From: Stenotrophomonas maltophilia
GTDB lineage: Bacteria; Pseudomonadota; Gammaproteobacteria; Xanthomonadales; Xanthomonadaceae
Reading direction: 5' to 3'
Assembly (NCBI RefSeq): GCF_004920835.1
Contig: NZ_QFHO01000009.1
Coordinates: 1-64,000 of the forward strand
DNA: 64,000 bases
Shown: positions 50,497 to 61,434 of the stretch, piece by piece
How positions within the stretch are numbered: the stretch's first letter is position 1
Layout of the letters: the number at the start of each line of letters is the position of its first letter
Notes under the pieces: model-generated
The model's database searches: none
What the model saw: only the letters and a program-made list of their open reading frames with translations
What the model was told of the DNA's origin: nothing
Translations under genes and position numbers: made by a program

Positions 50497-53295
50497 TCAG
50501 CGGAATTGCAGGGTCAGCAGATAGTATCGGCCGAGTGGGTCGTCCAGCCCCGGCATCTGTCCGCCGTTGCCGACCAGATAGTTCACCGGCTGCGTGTCGA
50601 GCACGTTGTGCACATCCATCGCGGCGACAATGCGGGGGCCCAACCGGCGTGCGAGGTGCAGGTTCCAGCGCAGCTGCCGCGGGTTCATGCAGTGGCTCAG
50701 TTCGATCTGCTCCTGCGGGCACTCGGCACCGGGCAGCCACGCACGCGTGCGTCCGGTCTGGTTGCCACGCAGCGCGATATCCCAATTGCTGTTCTGCCAT
50801 TGCACGTTCAGTACGGCGGCGATCTCCGGCGTCACATGGCCGCGCAGGTCCACCGCAGGCTCATGGTCGCGGCGCCGACGCAGTTCCTGCTGCTTCAATG
50901 CATCGAGCGAGAACAGCCACTGGCCGTTGCTGCCTGCATCGATACGGTACTCGCCGCGCAGCACCCAGTTGCGGGACGTGGTGCGCCCGATGTTGTCGAA
51001 GGACAGGCGCAGGCTGCGCAGCTGGCCGTCTTCGTCCAGCTGCCAGGTGCTGCGGTTCCAGACTGCGTCGGATGGCTGCAGGGCCAGGATCTCGTTGCGC
51101 AGCTCGACGATGTTGTGGGTCAGCGACAGTGAGAAGGTGTCGTTGGGTGTCCAGGTGGCGGCCAGCGAATGACTGCGCGAGCGCTCGGCTTTCAGCGCGT
51201 CGTTCTCCACCACCTCGGCGGTGACGCTGCAACGACCATCACTGATGGTCATCGCGCATTCCGGCAGCGCGCTGGAGGCGGGCAGCGTGATCGAGCCGAA
51301 GTAGCCGGGCGGTCGCCGCTGTTCAAACAGGCTGGGAGCGCGATAGCCGCGTCCGCTGGCCAGCAGGAACGACCACTGCGGCGTCGGGCTCCAGCGCAGG
51401 CCGGCCCGGGGCGAGAACGCCATGAAACCGCCATCACGATCCCAGCGAGCGGCCAGATCCGCGCGCAGCGTGGGCGCAAGCGGCAGGCCGAGCTCGGCGT
51501 AGACGCCGCTGCTCTGCCGCGACAGGCGACGTTGCTGCTGTGGCAGCCCCAATGCGAGGTCACCCTGGCTGAGCAGCGCGTCGGGACGCGATGTCCAGCG
51601 CTCATGGCGCAGGTCGATGCCGGTGGCCAGCTGCGCAGGGCCACCGGGCAGCGGCATCAGTTCGCGCTGCATACCCCACCAGCCCTGCCATTGTTCGGTA
51701 CTGCCGCGGTTGCGGATCGATGGGAACAATGTCTCTGCTTCGGCGGCAGGTGGTGCGTCGAAGCCGGGCAGGAACCGTCGCGACTGCGTGGCTTCCAGCA
51801 ACCGGGTCGCACGTACGGTGCCTGCGGTGGACAGCGTGACTCCGCTGCGTTGGCCGCTGATTCCCGCTTCCCAGCTGCGCCGGCCCTGGTCGCGGCCGAT
51901 GCCGAAGGTGACATCCGTATCGGTGGCGCGAACGCTGGGGCGCACATTGCCGGCTTCATGCATGACGCTGTTGAAGGTGATTCCGCGCGCGACCACGGCG
52001 ATGGCGGTTGGACCCAGGTCGAAGCGCTGCCGGTTGTGGCTGGCGCGTGCTTCGACATAGGCATAGCGTCCTTCACCGCGTTCGTGCCGGTAATGCAGGT
52101 AGGCCGATGCGGTATCCGAGGCCGGTTGCAGCGAGCGCGGGCGGGCACTGTCGAACCAGCAGCCATCCTCGCGGCGCTTCAACGGGGGCTCGCAGCGCCG
52201 GGCCGGCACGTACCAGTTGCCGAAGATCGCGCCGATCGGATACAGCGAGGTTTCCGCATGCCAGTCGCGGCGATCACCGGCCACATGTTCGACACGATGC
52301 AGGTCAAGGCCCGCAAACCAGCGGTCGCCGTTCTCGCGCAGGCTACCGGTGGCTGCCTGCACCCGGTACTGCCCGGCATCGCCGCGGCTGCTGAGCCCGG
52401 TCTGCAGCATGGCTTCGGGACCATCGGCCTGGTCGCGCAGGATGATGTTGACCACGCCGGACATCGCGTCGGCACCGTAGATGGCGGAGGCACCACCGCG
52501 GACCAGTTCGATGCGATCGACGAAGCTCAGCGGAATGCCGCCCAGATCGGTCAGTCCGCCTTGTTCCAGCGACACCATTGGATAGCGGGGCAGGCGCCGG
52601 CCATTGACCAGGAACAGCGTCGCTCGCGGTCCCATGCCGTCGAGACTGGTTGTCGCGGCCGCTCCTACTGGCAGGTACTGCGAATCGCCGCTGCGCGAGG
52701 TGCTCATGGCCGGATGGCCGTTCATGCCCGGCAGGTGCCGCAACAGGTCGAACAGGTTGCCGTAGCCGCTGCGCAGGATGTCGTCGCGGTCGATGGTGGT
52801 GACCGGCAGCGTTGTCTGCACCGAGGTGCGCGGCAGGCGGCTGCCGGTGACGTGGATCGGTGCCAGTTCCACCTGCGGTGCTGCATCGGGCGCGTTGGGC
52901 ACGGTGCGTATGGCGTGGGCCGCTGCCGGGGCTTTCGATACCTTGGCCGGTAGTTCGGCGTGAACGCGGCGGATGACAAAGGCGCCTGAGGATGTGCGCA
53001 GGATGTTCACCGGCAGGCCGCCGACCAGCTGTTTCAGCGCGGTTGCCGTATCACGCTGGCCATGGCTACCGTTGGTGCGCAGCCCCTCCAGCTCACGTGC
53101 GTCGAACAGCAGGGCGGTACCGCTCTGCCGTGCCCATTGCTGCAACGCCGGGACCAATGGTCCGGCGCCCACATCGATCTCCAGCGTGCCGGCAGGCTCG
53201 CTGGCATCGGCCACCGGTAATGCCGCTATACCCACTGCCAGATAAAGCAAGGCGCGGAGCAGCCCCCACTGCAGCGCACCCGGACCTGCCTTCAC
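50497..53295 (-). CDS. TonB-dependent outer-membrane receptor with STN domain
   Basis: A 932-residue receptor: signal peptide (residues 1-31), STN (secretin/TonB short N-terminal) domain of transducer-type receptors at about 40-110 (GPLVPALQQWARQSGTALLF), plug domain at about 160-290 (ELAPIHVTGSRLP then ELVRGGASAIYGADAMSGVV), then a 22-strand barrel ending in a terminal Arg after LLTLQF. The STN domain is typical of receptors that signal through a FecR-like protein to an ECF sigma factor, and both genes lie just upstream. Start GTG with ribosome site GGAGG. The ligand (siderophore, vitamin, sugar or peptide) is unknown. Confidence 0.9.
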   Translation of the reverse strand: MKAGPGALQWGLLRALLYLAVGIAALPVADASEPAGTLEIDVGAGPLVPALQQWARQSGTALLFDARELEGLRTNGSHGQRDTATALKQLVGGLPVNILRTSSGAFVIRRVHAELPAKVSKAPAAAHAIRTVPNAPDAAPQVELAPIHVTGSRLPRTSVQTTLPVTTIDRDDILRSGYGNLFDLLRHLPGMNGHPAMSTSRSGDSQYLPVGAAATTSLDGMGPRATLFLVNGRRLPRYPMVSLEQGGLTDLGGIPLSFVDRIELVRGGASAIYGADAMSGVVNIILRDQADGPEAMLQTGLSSRGDAGQYRVQAATGSLRENGDRWFAGLDLHRVEHVAGDRRDWHAETSLYPIGAIFGNWYVPARRCEPPLKRREDGCWFDSARPRSLQPASDTASAYLHYRHERGEGRYAYVEARASHNRQRFDLGPTAIAVVARGITFNSVMHEAGNVRPSVRATDTDVTFGIGRDQGRRSWEAGISGQRSGVTLSTAGTVRATRLLEATQSRRFLPGFDAPPAAEAETLFPSIRNRGSTEQWQGWWGMQRELMPLPGGPAQLATGIDLRHERWTSRPDALLSQGDLALGLPQQQRRLSRQSSGVYAELGLPLAPTLRADLAARWDRDGGFMAFSPRAGLRWSPTPQWSFLLASGRGYRAPSLFEQRRPPGYFGSITLPASSALPECAMTISDGRCSVTAEVVENDALKAERSRSHSLAATWTPNDTFSLSLTHNIVELRNEILALQPSDAVWNRSTWQLDEDGQLRSLRLSFDNIGRTTSRNWVLRGEYRIDAGSNGQWLFSLDALKQQELRRRRDHEPAVDLRGHVTPEIAAVLNVQWQNSNWDIALRGNQTGRTRAWLPGAECPQEQIELSHCMNPRQLRWNLHLARRLGPRIVAAMDVHNVLDTQPVNYLVGNGGQMPGLDDPLGRYYLLTLQFR

Positions 53296-53306: not shown

Positions 53307-54275
53307 TCAGTACGTGCGGCGCAGTTCCAGCGCGCCATCCGGGCGCGTCTGGCCAGCAACGGACCAGCCCAGTTCCAGTGCGGACAGCAGCTCCTGTGCA
53401 TCCCCCGCGCGGAACGTGCCACTTACCGCCAGATCGGCGATCTCCGGATCGGCGATCACCAGCGGCGTGCGGCCATAGCGGTTCATGCGCTCGACCACGA
53501 TGGACAGTGGCGTGGCATCAAAGACCAGTTGCCCGTGCAGCCACCCTTCGGCGGCCGCGTTGGATGACAGCGCCGGGCCAGGCTGGATGCGCCCGGAGGG
53601 CAGCACCTGCAGCTGCTGGCCAGGTGCCAGCATGTGCTGGGCCGTGCCGCTGCTGACTTCCACTGCGCCCTCCAGCAGTGCGACCTCGACCAGGCCATCG
53701 TGCAGGCGCTCGACCTGGAAGGTGGTGCCGATGTCGCGGATCGTGCTGTTGCCAGCCTGCAGCCGCAGTGCCTTGCTCGATGGCGCCACCTGCAGCTGCA
53801 GGCGTCCGCGCTCCAGATCCAGTTCGCGATGTCGCCAGCCAAAGCTGGCGCGCAGCGTGGTGCCAGCATCAAGCGTGGCCACGCTGCCATCGGCCAGGGT
53901 CAACTGGCGCGGCAGGCGGGTGTCATTGGCGTACAGCTGCGGTGTCGGATTGCCATCCACCGCAACCATCCAGCCGATGCCGATGGCCAGGCAGATGCCG
54001 GCGGCCGCGGCCAGGCCGGGCAGCAGGCGACGGCGGGCAGGTCGCGCGGCGCGCGCTGCGGCGGTCCGCAACCAGGGGTCGGTGGCCAGCCCTTCGCCCT
54101 GCTGGAACAGGGTCTCGGCCTGTACCCAGGCTTTGACATGGGCAGGGTCCTCAGCCAGCCAGTCTTCGAACGCTTCACGCTCGTCCGCTGTGCAGTCCGG
54201 GGCTTCCAGCCGCGCCACCCAGGTGCTGGCGCGTTCGAACACCGAGGCGTCTTCCATGTGCCGGTGGCGGCTCAT
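53307..54275 (-). CDS. FecR-family anti-sigma/signal transducer
   Basis: A 322-residue inner-membrane protein. N-terminal cytoplasmic FecR_N (FERASTWVARLEAPDCTADE, FEDWLAEDPAHVKAW), one transmembrane helix near residue 90 (LPGLAAAAGICLAIGIGWMV), and a periplasmic FecR domain (LADGSVATLDAGTTLRASFG) followed by an STN-like end (PLSIVVERMNRYGRTPLVIA). It relays receptor occupancy to the sigma factor. Overlaps the sigma gene stop by four bases. Confidence 0.9.
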   Translation of the reverse strand: MSRHRHMEDASVFERASTWVARLEAPDCTADEREAFEDWLAEDPAHVKAWVQAETLFQQGEGLATDPWLRTAAARAARPARRRLLPGLAAAAGICLAIGIGWMVAVDGNPTPQLYANDTRLPRQLTLADGSVATLDAGTTLRASFGWRHRELDLERGRLQLQVAPSSKALRLQAGNSTIRDIGTTFQVERLHDGLVEVALLEGAVEVSSGTAQHMLAPGQQLQVLPSGRIQPGPALSSNAAAEGWLHGQLVFDATPLSIVVERMNRYGRTPLVIADPEIADLAVSGTFRAGDAQELLSALELGWSVAGQTRPDGALELRRTY

Positions 54276-54844
54276 TCAGCGTCCCTGTCGTTGTGCAGTG
54301 GATCCGGCCCCAGTTCCTGGCGCAGGCCCTGCAGGGCGCGGGCAATATGTTTTTCCACGGTCTTGGCAGTGATTCCACAGTGCCGCGCAATCTGTGTATA
54401 GCTCATGCCGGTGATCCGGTTGAGCAGGTACACCTCGCGCGCGCGCTCGGGCAGTTTGAACAGGGCCTGCCGCAGCAGGGAAAGCATCTGCCCGGACTCG
54501 GCCTGGCGCAATGGATCGGGCGAGGTACTGGAAGGCTCGTCGCTGCCATCGTGCTCGGCCAGCGGCAGGTGCGGCCGCGACTGCGGCGAACGGCCGCGGT
54601 CTGCCAGGCGGTTGCGGGCGATACGATACAGCAGCAGGCGCAGTTCGTCCGGGCCCTGCGCGCGATAGCGGATCAACCGCTCCATGCAGTCCTGTGCGAT
54701 GTCCTCCGCATCTTCCGGCCCGACCCCTCGCGTGCGCAGGAACGCGCACAGCGGCGCGCGTTCTTCGCGTACGAACGCGATGAAGGCATCCGCAGGCGCG
54801 GGCAGCTGCGGCGCGCGATGGAGCAGGGGGGACGGGGTGGACAG
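54272..54844 (-). CDS. ECF RNA polymerase sigma factor (FecI-like), unusual start
   Basis: About 190 residues when begun at the CTG at 54844. Region 2 reads AFIAFVREERAPLCAFLRTR then GPEDAEDIAQDCMERLIRYR; region 4 reads LPERAREVYLLNRITGMSYT then QIARHCGITAKTVEKHIARA. Between an in-frame TGA (about 54871) and the internal Met at 54685 there is no ATG, GTG or TTG, and the internal Met would cut region 2. GCGAGG lies 6 bases before the CTG. Either a rare CTG start or a small frameshift near the 5' end (an ATG at 54878 lies in another frame). Sits ahead of fecR-like and TonB receptor genes. Confidence 0.78.
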   Translation of the reverse strand: MSTPSPLLHRAPQLPAPADAFIAFVREERAPLCAFLRTRGVGPEDAEDIAQDCMERLIRYRAQGPDELRLLLYRIARNRLADRGRSPQSRPHLPLAEHDGSDEPSSTSPDPLRQAESGQMLSLLRQALFKLPERAREVYLLNRITGMSYTQIARHCGITAKTVEKHIARALQGLRQELGPDPLHNDRDAE

Positions 54845-54925
54845 GGCAGGCCTCGCGTGTCGGTGGCAGATGCGTCATCGAGTTTTACGCGACGATGACC
54901 GGATGGGGAAGAGTGTGCATCGATC

Positions 54926-54950
54926 GAATTCTCATTGTGAATATATTCAT
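54926..54950. promoter_or_regulatory. AT-rich control patch between sigma operon and autotransporter
   Basis: GAATTCTCATTGTGAATATA then TTCAT: contains the perfect palindrome GAATATATTC and, on the minus strand, AATGAGAATT, which resembles half of a Fur box. Divergent promoters must lie here. An iron link is only suggested. Confidence 0.35.
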
Positions 54951-55035
54951 CTTTCGGCGCCGGATCCACTGGGGGAGATCGCCCCGCTGCGGCGTTGATC
55001 GTTCTACCCGCGTGTTGCGGGTGGAGAGAGAACAC

Positions 55036-57909
55036 ATGAAGTATTCGAAGTTGAGCCTGGCCCTGGCCGGGCTGATGGGTGTCGCCACCATGTCCGTGGC
55101 TGATGACGTCATGGCAATGAATTATCACGTGCTGGGCGATCGCATCTTCCTGAGTGGCGATGTGACCTACGCCGACGTGGTGTCCCTGCCGGCACTGCTG
55201 GCCAAAGCGCAGGCCGAAGGCCGGCCGATCCGCGAAGTGGTATTGCGCACCTCCAATGGTGGCGCGTTGATCGCCGGCGAGTGGCTGCAGGGAGTGATCC
55301 GCACATCCGGCCTCAACACCATCGTGTCCGGCAACTGCATTTCATCCTGCTCGATCATGCAGTCCGGTGGTGTCGAGCGCTATCTGGCCGGCGACCTGCC
55401 GATCATCGACTCGGTGCAGATCCACGCGGCCAGCAGCGGTGGCAAGGTGATCTACACGCCGTCGCCGCGCATGACCCAGATCTACACCGGCAACTATGGC
55501 GGCGGCATGGATGCCGGCCTGCTGCACAAGGCCATGTATGAAGTGGTACAGCCGAACGGGCTGCTGGTGTTCCGCGATCCAGCCCGCAGCACGGGGGCCT
55601 CCATCACCTTTGATCCGGATGGCAGCGGCAGCAAGCTGGAATCATTCCCGGGCCAGGACATCTACAGCAACAGGATCATCAGCGCCAACGGGTACCGCGA
55701 TCCGGGCGACACGTTGAATGTGAGCGCGAACGTGAGCGGCGATATCAATCCAGGCTACCTGCGTACCGGACGCCAGCTGCAAGCCTTCGTCGATGATGAT
55801 TTCGCGCGCTGGAATACCGACTGGCAATCCACCTACATCAACCTTGCGCAGAGCATCTACAACGCCTCGAGCCGCGGCCCGCAGGGCATCGGCCCGCTGT
55901 CGGTGCAGGGTTACCTGAATGACCCGGATATCCAGGACCTGCTGCTGTCCAAACTGCGTCTGGCGGATCTGGATGCCTCTACGCTGGACAACGCCATGGG
56001 TGTGATCCGCGTGACCAATGGCGCCACCTGGCGCACGTCCGCTACCACGGGTGCGGACTTCATGCTGGTGGACAACGGCACCATCGCCCTGGAAGGCGGT
56101 GCCCTGCGCGCCTCGGAAGTGCGCGTGCTCGGGGCTGGCATGCTGGTTGGCCACGGCGACGTTGCCGGCACGGCGATGGATCTCAATGCACTGGGCGAAG
56201 GCACTGGCCCTTCCTACCGTGAAGACGGCTTCAATCGCCTGCGCGTGTTCGGCACACTGATGCCGCGCGGTGGCGATCTGGTCACCCATGGTTACGTCAA
56301 TATCATGCCGGGCGGCAAGGTGCTGTTCGATGTGACCGAGGGCGGCGGCACGGCCACTGGCCGCCTGCGCGTGGGCACCTTCTTCGATGACGAACAGACC
56401 GACGGCGCGCTGGTGATCTCCAAGGGCGCCTTCCTCGAACTGAACGTGGCACAGGGCTACTACGGCCAGGACTTCCGTCGCGATCTGGTGGAAGGACCGA
56501 TCTACCAAGGTGGTTTCGAAGAAGCCGTGCGCTTGGGGGATACCGGCTACAGTGCCAGCATCACTGGTGGTGATGTGTTCCGCCCGCGTCACAACTCGCT
56601 GTTGAGCTTCAATGTGAAGCAGACCGCCGATGGTCTGTGGTTGACCGCCAACCCCGGCTTCGACCAGGTGGGTCTGTTCGCCAACGGCACTTCGGGCGAT
56701 GGCCTGGGCCGCGCATTGGCAACCGCCTCCGATCGCCAGGACAAAGGCCTGAAGTCGCTGCTCGGTGCACTGCAGTTCGCTGATCGCGACGTAATCGCAC
56801 AGCAGGCCGGAGCCCTGCGCGGTGATGCGCACGCCAGCCTGCGCCTGGCCGACACTGCGCTGGTGGGCAGCATCGGCAACGTCGTGCAGCAGCACCAGGC
56901 CGCGATGCGCAGCGGCGGGGACGCCGACGGCCTGGCTTCGCAGGCCGCGCAGTCGGTCTCATCTCAACCGGGCATGCGCCATGGCAGCCTGTTCAACCAG
57001 CTCGCCATGCATCTGGTCGAGCCGGCGTCGGGCAGCGCTGCGGGCAGCGGTGATGCTGGACGCAACCATGGCATCTGGGCCCGCGGTTTCGCCAGCCATG
57101 GCCGCATCGATGCCGACGGTGGCGTGGCGGGGCTCAGCCACAACATCGGCGGCATCGTGATCGGTGCCGACACCCGCGTGGCCGATGACCGCGTTACCCT
57201 CGGCGTCAGCGTGGCAGCGGCCGACATGTCGACCAAGGCCATTGACGGCTCCGGGTTCACCGGCGATGTGCGCGCGCTGGACGTGGGCGGCTACCTGGAT
57301 GCGACCTACTCGCGGGGCTACCTGTCGGCAGCGGTGCGCTACACCGACCTGCGCCACGATACCCGTCGCAGCATCGGCGGTATCGATGGCCTGCAGCAGC
57401 CGCTGCGCGCCAGGTACAGCAACGATGCGATTTCCGCACGGGTGGAGCACGCGTTCTCCTTCACCACCGGCAGGGGACTGGTGATCCAGCCGTTGCTGCC
57501 GGTGGTGGATTACGCGCGCACCTCGGCCACTCGTTTCAATGAAGGGCAGGGCGCCGGTGCGCTGGTTGGCCGCAGCGGCAGCCTGGAGAGCATCCGCGTT
57601 GGTGCCGGCCTGCAGCTGTTCAAGACCTTTGAAGGCAACAACGGCGAGCGCATCACGCCGCGCGCCCGCGTGGTCTGGCAGAAGGAACTGGGCGACTCGC
57701 AGGCCCGTTACAGCACCGGTTTCGCCGCTGCACCGGATCTGGTATTCGGTGCCAGCAGCCAGGCCGTGGGCGAGCAGGTGCTGGCCTGGAACCTGGGTGT
57801 GACCAGCCGGGCCAGCGAACGTCTGTCGATCATGGCCGACTATGTGGGCGAGCGCCGCGACGGGCAGATCCAGAATGGCGTGATGCTGGGGCTGGGCTAC
57901 AAGTTCTAA
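55036..57909 (+). CDS. autotransporter with ClpP-like (COG3904-type) passenger
   Basis: A 957-residue type Va secretion protein. Signal peptide KLSLALAGLMGVATMSVADD; residues about 28-150 resemble the ClpP/crotonase-like COG3904 fold (REVVLRTSNGGALIAG, then CISSCSIMQSGG and SVQIHAASSGG). Ser104 sits in the C-x-S-x-C context of that family and His130 is 26 residues later, a spacing like the Ser-His pair in ClpP. A beta-helix-like region follows (DNGTIALEGGALRASEVRVL), then a C-terminal autotransporter barrel of about 270 residues ending in aromatic Phe (GLGYKF). ATG at 55036 after GAGAGAAC. Divergent from the sigma/FecR/receptor operon. Confidence 0.82.
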   Translation: MKYSKLSLALAGLMGVATMSVADDVMAMNYHVLGDRIFLSGDVTYADVVSLPALLAKAQAEGRPIREVVLRTSNGGALIAGEWLQGVIRTSGLNTIVSGNCISSCSIMQSGGVERYLAGDLPIIDSVQIHAASSGGKVIYTPSPRMTQIYTGNYGGGMDAGLLHKAMYEVVQPNGLLVFRDPARSTGASITFDPDGSGSKLESFPGQDIYSNRIISANGYRDPGDTLNVSANVSGDINPGYLRTGRQLQAFVDDDFARWNTDWQSTYINLAQSIYNASSRGPQGIGPLSVQGYLNDPDIQDLLLSKLRLADLDASTLDNAMGVIRVTNGATWRTSATTGADFMLVDNGTIALEGGALRASEVRVLGAGMLVGHGDVAGTAMDLNALGEGTGPSYREDGFNRLRVFGTLMPRGGDLVTHGYVNIMPGGKVLFDVTEGGGTATGRLRVGTFFDDEQTDGALVISKGAFLELNVAQGYYGQDFRRDLVEGPIYQGGFEEAVRLGDTGYSASITGGDVFRPRHNSLLSFNVKQTADGLWLTANPGFDQVGLFANGTSGDGLGRALATASDRQDKGLKSLLGALQFADRDVIAQQAGALRGDAHASLRLADTALVGSIGNVVQQHQAAMRSGGDADGLASQAAQSVSSQPGMRHGSLFNQLAMHLVEPASGSAAGSGDAGRNHGIWARGFASHGRIDADGGVAGLSHNIGGIVIGADTRVADDRVTLGVSVAAADMSTKAIDGSGFTGDVRALDVGGYLDATYSRGYLSAAVRYTDLRHDTRRSIGGIDGLQQPLRARYSNDAISARVEHAFSFTTGRGLVIQPLLPVVDYARTSATRFNEGQGAGALVGRSGSLESIRVGAGLQLFKTFEGNNGERITPRARVVWQKELGDSQARYSTGFAAAPDLVFGASSQAVGEQVLAWNLGVTSRASERLSIMADYVGERRDGQIQNGVMLGLGYKF

Positions 57910-59927: not shown

Positions 59928-60491
59928 ATGCGATTGATGTGGGGTGTTTTTTGGGCTGTAGCGGCAGTGCTTATTTTGGCGGCCTTTGTGGTTGCTAGAA
60001 CCGTTTACAGCCAGCCAGCACCGTTGAGTAGTACTCAGTTCTTCGAAGCAACAAAAGCATTTCTGCTTTGCTTGGGGGGAGCTGGTGTCGTTCTTTCTAC
60101 ATATTTCACTGCCGTGAATGCCTTTGTCCAGAGACGTTCGGAAAAAATAAATAACACCTTTGATCTCCTAACTAGCTGGGATGATCCTCACCTCTTTCAG
60201 GCTCGCAAGCTGACCCGAAAGTACAAGGCGCTGAGGGACGAAAAATCAAACAACCAGCTCATAGAGGAAATTGAGGGGGATGAGGATCTAAAGAATTCCG
60301 TCATTCTCGTCCTAAACTACTTTGAGCATGTCAGATTTTCGCTAAAGTCAAATCGAATAGACGAGCTTATGTTTAAGGAGTCTCTCGGTCCAACTGTCAT
60401 AGATATCATCGATAGATTTATGCCGTTCGCCAAGAAGATGAGTCAGCGATCTTTCGATGATCTTGATGATCTCAAGAATCGCCTCCGGTGA
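59928..60491 (+). CDS. membrane-anchored DUF4760-like protein, TIR gene partner
   Basis: A 187-residue protein with two N-terminal transmembrane helices (VFWAVAAVLILAAFVVART and AFLLCLGGAGVVLSTYFTAV) and a charged helical cytoplasmic part (TFDLLTSWDDPHLFQARKLT, KNSVILVLNYFEHVRFSLKS). This layout and the aromatic/charged pattern resemble the DUF4760 family, which is uncharacterised. The start could be the ATG at 59928 or the one at 59937. It is AT-richer than the core genes. 79 bases separate it from the TIR gene, so they probably share a transcript; it may anchor or control the TIR protein. Confidence 0.7.
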   Translation: MRLMWGVFWAVAAVLILAAFVVARTVYSQPAPLSSTQFFEATKAFLLCLGGAGVVLSTYFTAVNAFVQRRSEKINNTFDLLTSWDDPHLFQARKLTRKYKALRDEKSNNQLIEEIEGDEDLKNSVILVLNYFEHVRFSLKSNRIDELMFKESLGPTVIDIIDRFMPFAKKMSQRSFDDLDDLKNRLR

Positions 60492-60570
60492 TTGGTGATA
60501 AGTAATTAAAGTCGAACTTTCTTCGTGGTGAAGGTTGATCAAGCTCCTGTAACTAATGGGAAGATGGATA

Positions 60571-61434
60571 ATGCCTGTATTTATAAGTTACTCGCATCAG
60601 GACAAGGATTTCGTAGATCAATTGGCAGTGCAGCTGGTGCAGAAAAATGTGCACGTGTGGGTCGATCGATGGGAGCTTAGCGTAGGTGACTCACTCATCG
60701 ACAAAGTCCAACAGGCAGTTGAGGGCGCGAGCGCTCTGCTCGTTGTCCTTTCTCCGGAATCGGTGCAGTCGGAATGGTGCAAACGAGAGCTCTCGGCGGG
60801 CCTGCTGCGAGAGCTTGAAGAAAAGAGAGTCGTAGTGATGCCAGTTCTTCTTCGAGATTGCGATATACCCATATTTGCACGAGGCAAGTTCTATGCCGAC
60901 TTCCGCACGAACTTTGATGAAGGATTGAAGGCCGTAGTTGATGGAATTGCAAAGGTAACTAATGCGTCGCTCTCTAGGGTGCAGGAAGATACCTACCACG
61001 TTGACTGGTCTATCAGCTCCGGTTTGGACGATAATGGAAATGTCGCCATAAAAGCCACCTTCATCCAAATCCCAAAATACGAGCCCTACACTTGCTTAAC
61101 AGAGGTGGTGATCATTGGCGATGATGCAGCGTCTCAAGAGTTTAAAGAGATAGCCGCAGCGGACAATGCCGAGATAGCCAAGCTTCGAGTTTGGGAGCAA
61201 TTCGCTGAAAGCATCGAGGAGAATGGAGAGCTAAAAGCGCTTCTCGAAGATGCCGAAGAGAAGAGGTTTAGAATTCCTCTTGCGTTTGGTGCTGGTGTGA
61301 TGGTGGGGTTTATTTCCAGCCGCCGTCTTGGTGAAGATACGGGCAAGGATGTACTTCTGAACGTTGCGGGGGTCGTCAACGAATCTCGAGACCATATGCA
61401 AAATGTCTTAAGCAAGCCTGCAGGGCGAGGTTGA
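60571..61434 (+). CDS. TIR-domain protein, candidate defence NADase effector
   Basis: A 287-residue protein. Residues 1-130 are a TIR domain: MPVFISYSHQDKDFVDQLAV, WVDRWELSVGDSLIDKVQQA, LLVVLSPESVQSEWCKREL and VVMPVLLRDCDIP. The Glu of WCKRE (about residue 73) is at the place of the NAD-cleaving Glu of catalytic TIRs. The C-terminal 150 residues are not recognised; they carry an acidic helix and one weak hydrophobic segment (PLAFGAGVMVGFISS). Bacterial TIR proteins commonly deplete NAD or make signal nucleotides during phage infection. The ATG at 60571 follows GGGAAG and begins at the first TIR strand; an in-frame ATG lies 15 bases upstream. Confidence 0.85.
   Translation: MPVFISYSHQDKDFVDQLAVQLVQKNVHVWVDRWELSVGDSLIDKVQQAVEGASALLVVLSPESVQSEWCKRELSAGLLRELEEKRVVVMPVLLRDCDIPIFARGKFYADFRTNFDEGLKAVVDGIAKVTNASLSRVQEDTYHVDWSISSGLDDNGNVAIKATFIQIPKYEPYTCLTEVVIIGDDAASQEFKEIAAADNAEIAKLRVWEQFAESIEENGELKALLEDAEEKRFRIPLAFGAGVMVGFISSRRLGEDTGKDVLLNVAGVVNESRDHMQNVLSKPAGRG

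Follow-up and report, generated by a model that had tools for sequence, protein, structure and literature searches.

The window analysed here is a stretch of 64,000 nucleotides from Stenotrophomonas maltophilia (contig NZ_QFHO01000009.1, positions 1 to 64,000). On its plus strand lies an autotransporter gene (55036-57909), which an earlier reading of the letters without database searches (the sequence-only reading) had described as starting, after the signal peptide, with a ClpP-like domain. The open reading frame given there is borne out: it encodes 957 amino acids plus a stop codon, and orthologues were found at 23 loci (L002-L022, L025 and L026). By eye, residues 1-27 form a signal peptide (55036-55116), with cleavage probably after A27. 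The signal peptide is followed by a ClpP-superfamily domain at about residues 28-216 (55117-55683), its probable limits taken from alignments, by the remainder of the passenger and a linker without family match at residues 217-679 (55684-57072), and by the autotransporter beta-barrel at residues 680-957 (57073-57906), all on the plus strand. The barrel is of the classic type that had been proposed for the C terminus. PF03797 matches residues 680-936 with E = 2e-38 and, at E up to 10, is all that Pfam finds in the protein; from NCBIfam, TIGR01414 matches residues 669-957 (E = 1.5e-24), and a weak match to EstP is confined to the barrel region. Since Pfam at E up to 10 gives the barrel alone, a chymotrypsin- or subtilisin-type passenger (Peptidase S6 or S8) was rejected. 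The beta-helix supposed to lie between the two ends did not find support: for residues 217-655 there were zero Pfam families at E up to 1, and a PDB search at the same threshold returned a single chain, an unrelated cyclophilin (E = 0.29).

Purifying selection acts on the whole gene, with a ratio of nonsynonymous to synonymous substitution rates (dN/dS, calculated as the ratio of means over pairs) of 0.19 for the N-terminal domain, 0.27 for residues 217-430, 0.23 for residues 431-650 and 0.16 for the barrel. These values refer to the 22 intact genes of the window type, i.e. the window and 21 loci, excluding L022 and L026 as well as L023 and L024, which hold the more distant type B gene. Overall, the gene probably encodes a type Va autotransporter that bears at its mature N terminus a serine hydrolase of the ClpP superfamily, and this hydrolase is most likely a peptidase. 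The fusion, its homology to ClpP, the conservation of its motifs and the fixed FecI-FecR-TonB neighbourhood of the window type are shown by computation.

Homology of the N-terminal domain to ClpP

The homology is carried by profile searches. With a profile built from 12 autotransporter domains and one stand-alone relative (A2), ClpP ranked at the top of the PDB at E = 0.006, and 14 of the 18 rows up to E = 10 were ClpP, the other four being unrelated. With a profile of 36 domains (A3), ClpP was reached at E = 1.3e-10, the best 60 of 110 chains (E up to 10) were all ClpP, and the alignment placed the family serine and histidine in register with the catalytic Ser and His of ClpP. Many A3 rows were picked by a sequence pattern (x-G-G after one of S, N, H, D, A or E, plus C-x-S-x-C), and invariance at the patterned places is therefore partly built in; G112, R115 and H130 lie outside the pattern. 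Searched singly at E up to 1, 17 of the 36 A3 members matched PF00574 (CLP_protease; best E = 8e-8) and 20 matched the ClpP-related head maturation protease of NCBIfam (best E = 9e-9). Among the fused relatives scanned whole, PF03797 was present in all of L024, L044, L045, L122, L123, L153, L154 and L155. Two of them, L154 and L155, carry PF00574 in the same frame at 22.8 and 29.9 bits, above the cut-off of 20.2 bits (E = 9.1e-5 and 6.4e-7), and standard models thus detect the barrel and the ClpP domain within a single frame; at the thresholds used, PF00574 was absent from the remaining six. These double matches strengthen the assignment to ClpP made from sequence profiles, but say nothing for activity or for a partner.

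Structure prediction adds a partial fold. A first model (11 rows) had a mean predicted local distance difference test score (pLDDT) of 42.4 and was rejected as too poor. The second, based on 15 rows (alignment A9), reached a mean pLDDT of 56.5 and a predicted template modelling score (pTM) of 0.55, with residues 26-115 averaging 67-88 in ten-residue blocks and most later residues below 50. Alignments A7 and A8 were left unused, as they misplaced the H130 region in the viral rows, which A9 keeps only to the R115 region. Foldseek ranked ClpP in places 1-4 (E = 1e-3 to 1.9e-3, query template modelling score 0.36-0.39) and one chain of the SpoIIAB anti-sigma complex fifth; SppA, CtpA and a stomatin-specific protease were also among the best 50 of 1224 matches. 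In VIA-align, 48 of the 50 matches listed were ClpP and two were CtpA, and the best, to ClpP, had a Z score of 10.8 and a root mean square deviation of 2.9 Å over 95 residues in the confident N-terminal half of the model. A comparison of the model with ClpP and SppA had been asked for beforehand, and it places the confident half with ClpP. The modelled S103 lies one residue ahead of a helix; the catalytic serine of ClpP is likewise located one residue before a helix. Taking together the PDB profile matches, the Pfam and NCBIfam matches of the relatives, the fused frames of L154 and L155 and the partial model fold, the mature N terminus is, as judged from profiles and model, a ClpP-superfamily domain, as the sequence-only reading had suspected.

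Putative active site

Three elements noted earlier, N74-G75-G76, C101-I-S103-S104-C105-S106 and H130, located 26 residues after S104, are all present. The first belongs to S73-N-G75-G76 (55252-55263), an oxyanion-type S-x-G-G motif. In C101-I-S103-S104-C105 (55336-55350), the proposed nucleophile S103 (codon 55342-55344) sits between the two cysteines; H130 (55423-55425) is the proposed base, and D181 (55576-55578) a candidate third residue. All these codons are on the plus strand. Conservation was scored on the stretches of open frames that A2 matched (E up to 1e-3) in loci L036-L043, L051-L121 and L128-L147; of these 97 rows, 96 were distinct. These rows were picked without the A3 pattern; the A2 profile itself favours the scored letters, and the count is not fully independent. 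Across the 96 rows, G75, G76, C101 and C105 are invariant, S73 is found in 95, G112 in 93 and R115 in 92. The S103 column, aligned to the catalytic Ser of ClpP, reads S in 95 rows and A in one. At H130 there is a histidine in 75 rows and a gap in 21, with no other letter. The catalytic pair that had been suggested, S104 with H130, thus stands only in its second half: the S104 column contains S in 56 rows, A in 39 and M in one, S104 was rejected as the nucleophile, and the conserved serine is S103. When the rows with the window-type sequence RTSNGG were removed, S103 was retained in 64 of the remaining 65 and H130 in 44, with gaps in 21.

D181 is more restricted, with D in 39 of the 44 rows that have a letter and 52 rows gapped. 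Among the 22 intact window-type genes, S73, G75, G76, C101, S103, C105, R115, H130 and D181 are all invariant, and each of the 22 proteins has exactly two cysteines, C101 and C105, bracketing S103. Aligned and conserved in this way, S103 and H130 appear to correspond to the catalytic Ser and His of ClpP.

Distribution of the fusion and its gene neighbourhood

Other autotransporters with a ClpP-like N terminus, which the sequence-only reading had proposed to look for, exist in Stenotrophomonas, in another genus and in a second family. Within Stenotrophomonas, 57 of 91 genomes match A2 and 44 have the window-type fusion (43 at 1e-100 or better, plus G1066). Nine of these 44 have a second, more distant copy, which is a close type B gene in seven, a variant in G1064 and a two-piece gene in G267. 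G145 and G195 have their type B gene downstream of the window-type one (L046, 5714-8692 and 9872-13198, and L045). By eye, the barrels of the two genes in L045 are near-identical, which suggests gene conversion; the L046 copy partly reads N. The type B gene of G267 is split into two parts separated by about 38 kb of chromosome (L047 6944-7558 and L125 2914-5814).

In the family sample, the single window domain matched 13 of 297 genomes, including weak matches in G150 (3.6e-4) and G260 (2.4e-4) that may be spurious, and a full fusion in G001, of another genus of the same family (locus L044). Matches were found in 15 of 369 genomes of the class sample and in 65 of the 398 genomes of the phylum sample; outside the genus of the window, the lone frame there longer than 600 amino acids is the 1060-amino-acid fusion of G814, which belongs to a second family of the same class. 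In the family of G814, 21 of 195 genomes match, five with frames longer than 1000 amino acids; four of these have the barrel (L122, L153, L154 and L155), and the fifth frame is 95% identical to L122. In its genus, 5 of 15 genomes match, one of them new (G1305, a frame of 1073 amino acids).

A tree of 59 domains places the 14 fused rows together across one branch (support 93/65, 94% of bootstrap trees), and these rows nest with the stand-alone L133-L136 and L141 in a group with support of 99/97. The stand-alone rows of the tree were pattern-selected, and near copies (L126, L129, L138, L140 and L142-L147) were dropped beforehand. On this topology, the fusion of the ClpP domain with the autotransporter likely arose once. 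Spread by plasmids was rejected: neither the domain of the window nor that of G814 gave a tblastn match at E up to 1e-3. Phage origin was rejected as well: contig L127 of a viral collection holds a 96% identical domain, but its open frame shares the start of the present gene and it is therefore probably Stenotrophomonas DNA. Two other viral scans gave no relative, and one further viral scan gave four stand-alone relatives.

Upstream of the gene and divergent from it, on the minus strand, lie a FecI-type extracytoplasmic function (ECF) sigma factor with a provisional start (54275-54802; Sigma70_r4_2 2.6e-15, Sigma70_r2 1.4e-6), a FecR-type regulator (53307-54275; PF04773 8.2e-14, DUF4880 1.1e-13) and a TonB-dependent receptor (50497-53295; PF00593 1.4e-24, Plug 2.4e-18). 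The intergenic DNA that separates fecI from the autotransporter gene (54803-55035) presumably contains divergent promoters, and an alignment of 13 loci reveals conserved blocks in it. It also contains a palindrome, TGAATATATTCA, at 54938-54949, with variants at the same place in the 13 aligned loci. The sequence TGAATnnATTCA is found at three places in the genome, one being this palindrome; the other two, assigned by eye, are inside a receptor-like open reading frame and about 110 bases upstream of where an aconitase-like one probably starts.

All 23 window-type loci have a divergent, adjacent set of FecI, FecR and TonB receptor. The dehydrogenase gene on the downstream side is adjacent in 19 of the 23, farther off in L008 and L019, and not within reach in L011 and L020. 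Pfam scans gave no STN domain in the receptor of the window; the counterpart receptors of L044 and L122 have one (9.5e-11 and 1.7e-10). L044, in the other genus, has the same divergent order, with identities to the window of 38% for the autotransporter match, 47-49% for FecI, 36% for FecR and 36% for the receptor. In G814 a FecI-FecR-TonB(STN) set lies about 6 kb from the fusion, together with a small STN protein and a lipoprotein, and G1252, a near twin of G814, has the same gene set beside its fusion. The lipoprotein of G814 (L122 8352-10145), which sits between the fusion and the STN, TonB and FecR genes, contains HEWGH, a motif like that of metalloproteases, and matches bMG3 weakly, below the cut-off.

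Interpretation, rival explanations and novelty

If the prediction holds, the barrel would export the passenger across the outer membrane and leave the ClpP-like head outside the cell, where the head most likely acts as a serine hydrolase on the cell surface. S103 would serve as the nucleophile, H130 as the base and D181 perhaps as the acid. In an exported protein, C101 and C105 probably form a disulfide that closes a small loop round the nucleophile; a loop so small should be compatible with export. The surface enzyme would trim an extracellular protein or peptide. The link between the receptor and the gene suggests uptake or sensing of the product by the adjoining TonB receptor, or common control, in which case receptor and autotransporter would merely be co-expressed under the FecI/FecR switch. 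A more elaborate version, in which a surface module cuts an extracellular protein with its ClpP-fold protease, captures the product with the TonB receptor and signals through FecR and FecI, while the C101-C105 disulfide sets or switches activity, seems to us rather unlikely.

A number of results weigh against the assignment of a surface serine hydrolase. The model is poor overall (mean pLDDT 56.5), with residues 120-184 below 50, and H130 falls in its low-confidence half; none of the 1224 Foldseek matches counted at E up to 0.001. Searched alone, the window domain gave nothing meaningful against the PDB with phmmer, and at E up to 1 neither Pfam nor NCBIfam had a family that matched it. The gene is damaged in 2 of the 44 genomes with the window type, by a frame change in L022 (G1066) and, in L026 (G098), by a premature stop and shortening of the remainder, and is therefore dispensable in some strains. 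Furthermore, the Asp of ClpP has no invariant counterpart across the family alignments. The lack of an invariant third residue, together with the one row with A at S103, would fit a catalytically dead domain that serves as a binding head, an adhesin or receptor on a stalk. Dead enzyme copies usually lose their catalytic residues. Here only one of the 96 rows departs from S103, H130 is kept wherever its column has a letter (75 rows), S-x-G-G is kept almost throughout and the domain is under purifying selection; a dead head therefore appears improbable. The domain could also be an active enzyme other than a protease, such as a thioesterase or another acyl hydrolase, as the ClpP/crotonase superfold includes non-proteolytic enzymes. 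This we regard as very unlikely, given that the profile matches are mostly to serine proteases (the ClpP majorities with both A2 and A3) and that the fold matches listed include ClpP, SppA, CtpA and a stomatin-specific protease.

The neighbourhood can be questioned independently of the enzyme. In the stretches read at the type B loci L023 and L024 and at L123, nothing matched the FecI, FecR and receptor genes of the window (E up to 1e-10), and in three of the five second-family fusions (G1211, G1226 and G1288) no such set was nearby at E up to 1e-4; by eye, another TonB-receptor-like open reading frame is present in L155 (G1288) and part of one in L153 (G1211). All 23 loci of the window type are closely related, and FecR occurs at 11 places in G000, 10 in G163, 8 in G1106, 6 in G001 and 2 in the 5.2 Mb of G814. 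The set may thus be an accident of descent beside an autotransporter that works alone, an explanation that is compatible with the enzyme and to which we give a real chance, somewhat short of even. Against it stand the conserved divergent order in L044 despite identities of 36-49% and the proximity of the set to the fusion in G814 and its twin G1252. Because FecR places are so few per genome, a hand estimate that ignores the loci without the set puts the chance of such closeness at about half a percent for each of G001 and G814.

Compared with known systems, the proposed surface hydrolase shares with ClpP (MEROPS S14, PF00574) the profile homology, the S-x-G-G motif, Ser and His in register and the fold of the confident half; it differs in its predicted export, in being joined to a passenger and a barrel, in having C-x-S-x-C round the serine and in that PF00574 does not match the domain of the window. 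Stand-alone ClpP-like proteins have the same S-x-G-G...C-x-S-x-C...G-x-H signature, the nearest being L133-L136 and L141. They have open frames of about 135-700 amino acids, many with signal-peptide-like starts by eye, and the autotransporter barrel is absent from the seven scanned whole (L048, L049, L069, L133, L134, L136 and L141). Presumably these are the proteins that the sequence-only reading had labelled COG3904. One of them (L133 538-2385) continues in frame from the ClpP-like part into a rhodanese domain. The other superfold serine proteases among the fold matches listed (SppA, CtpA and stomatin-specific proteases) have different catalytic arrangements (Ser-Lys) and are not known to carry an autotransporter barrel. 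The neighbours resemble FecI-FecR-FecA surface signalling in the order of ECF sigma factor, FecR and TonB receptor, and differ from it in adjoining an autotransporter and in that STN was not detected in the window receptor.

SPATE (chymotrypsin-like) and subtilisin-like autotransporters also have a protease-type subdomain at the N terminus, with the remaining passenger and the barrel behind it, according to the accessible part of a 2022 review (PMC9289746), although their protease folds are unrelated to ClpP. As far as that part extends, the enzyme groups among the 112 characterised autotransporters of the review are chymotrypsin-like, subtilisin-like, GDSL and one sialidase, and Clp or ClpP does not occur (PMC9289746). 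A survey of serine proteases from 2008 gives, in its accessible part, 121 Clp homologues, of which 3 have extra domains; all three are archaeal and carry a nodulation-efficiency-type domain (PMC2605481). In the Smlt/K279a literature, one paper, in its accessible part, names autotransporters in vesicles without saying which. No description of a fusion between a ClpP-like domain and an autotransporter was found in the open-licence literature; the fold is known and so is the secretion route, and their combination is new. A ClpP-fold head, if true, would be a new catalytic class for type V secretion. The fusion architecture suggests a location and a possible partner for one member of the widespread stand-alone ClpP-like relatives, and with its C-x-S-x-C signature the active site lends itself to direct testing.

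Elsewhere in the window, the stretch 59928-61434 encodes a TIR-domain protein (PF13676 2.4e-31; matches to defence models include ThsB and bSEFIR) and a DUF4760 protein. Its GC content is about 45-55%, compared to about 62-70% alongside, and with the TIR and defence matches it therefore looks like an acquired defence-type insert.

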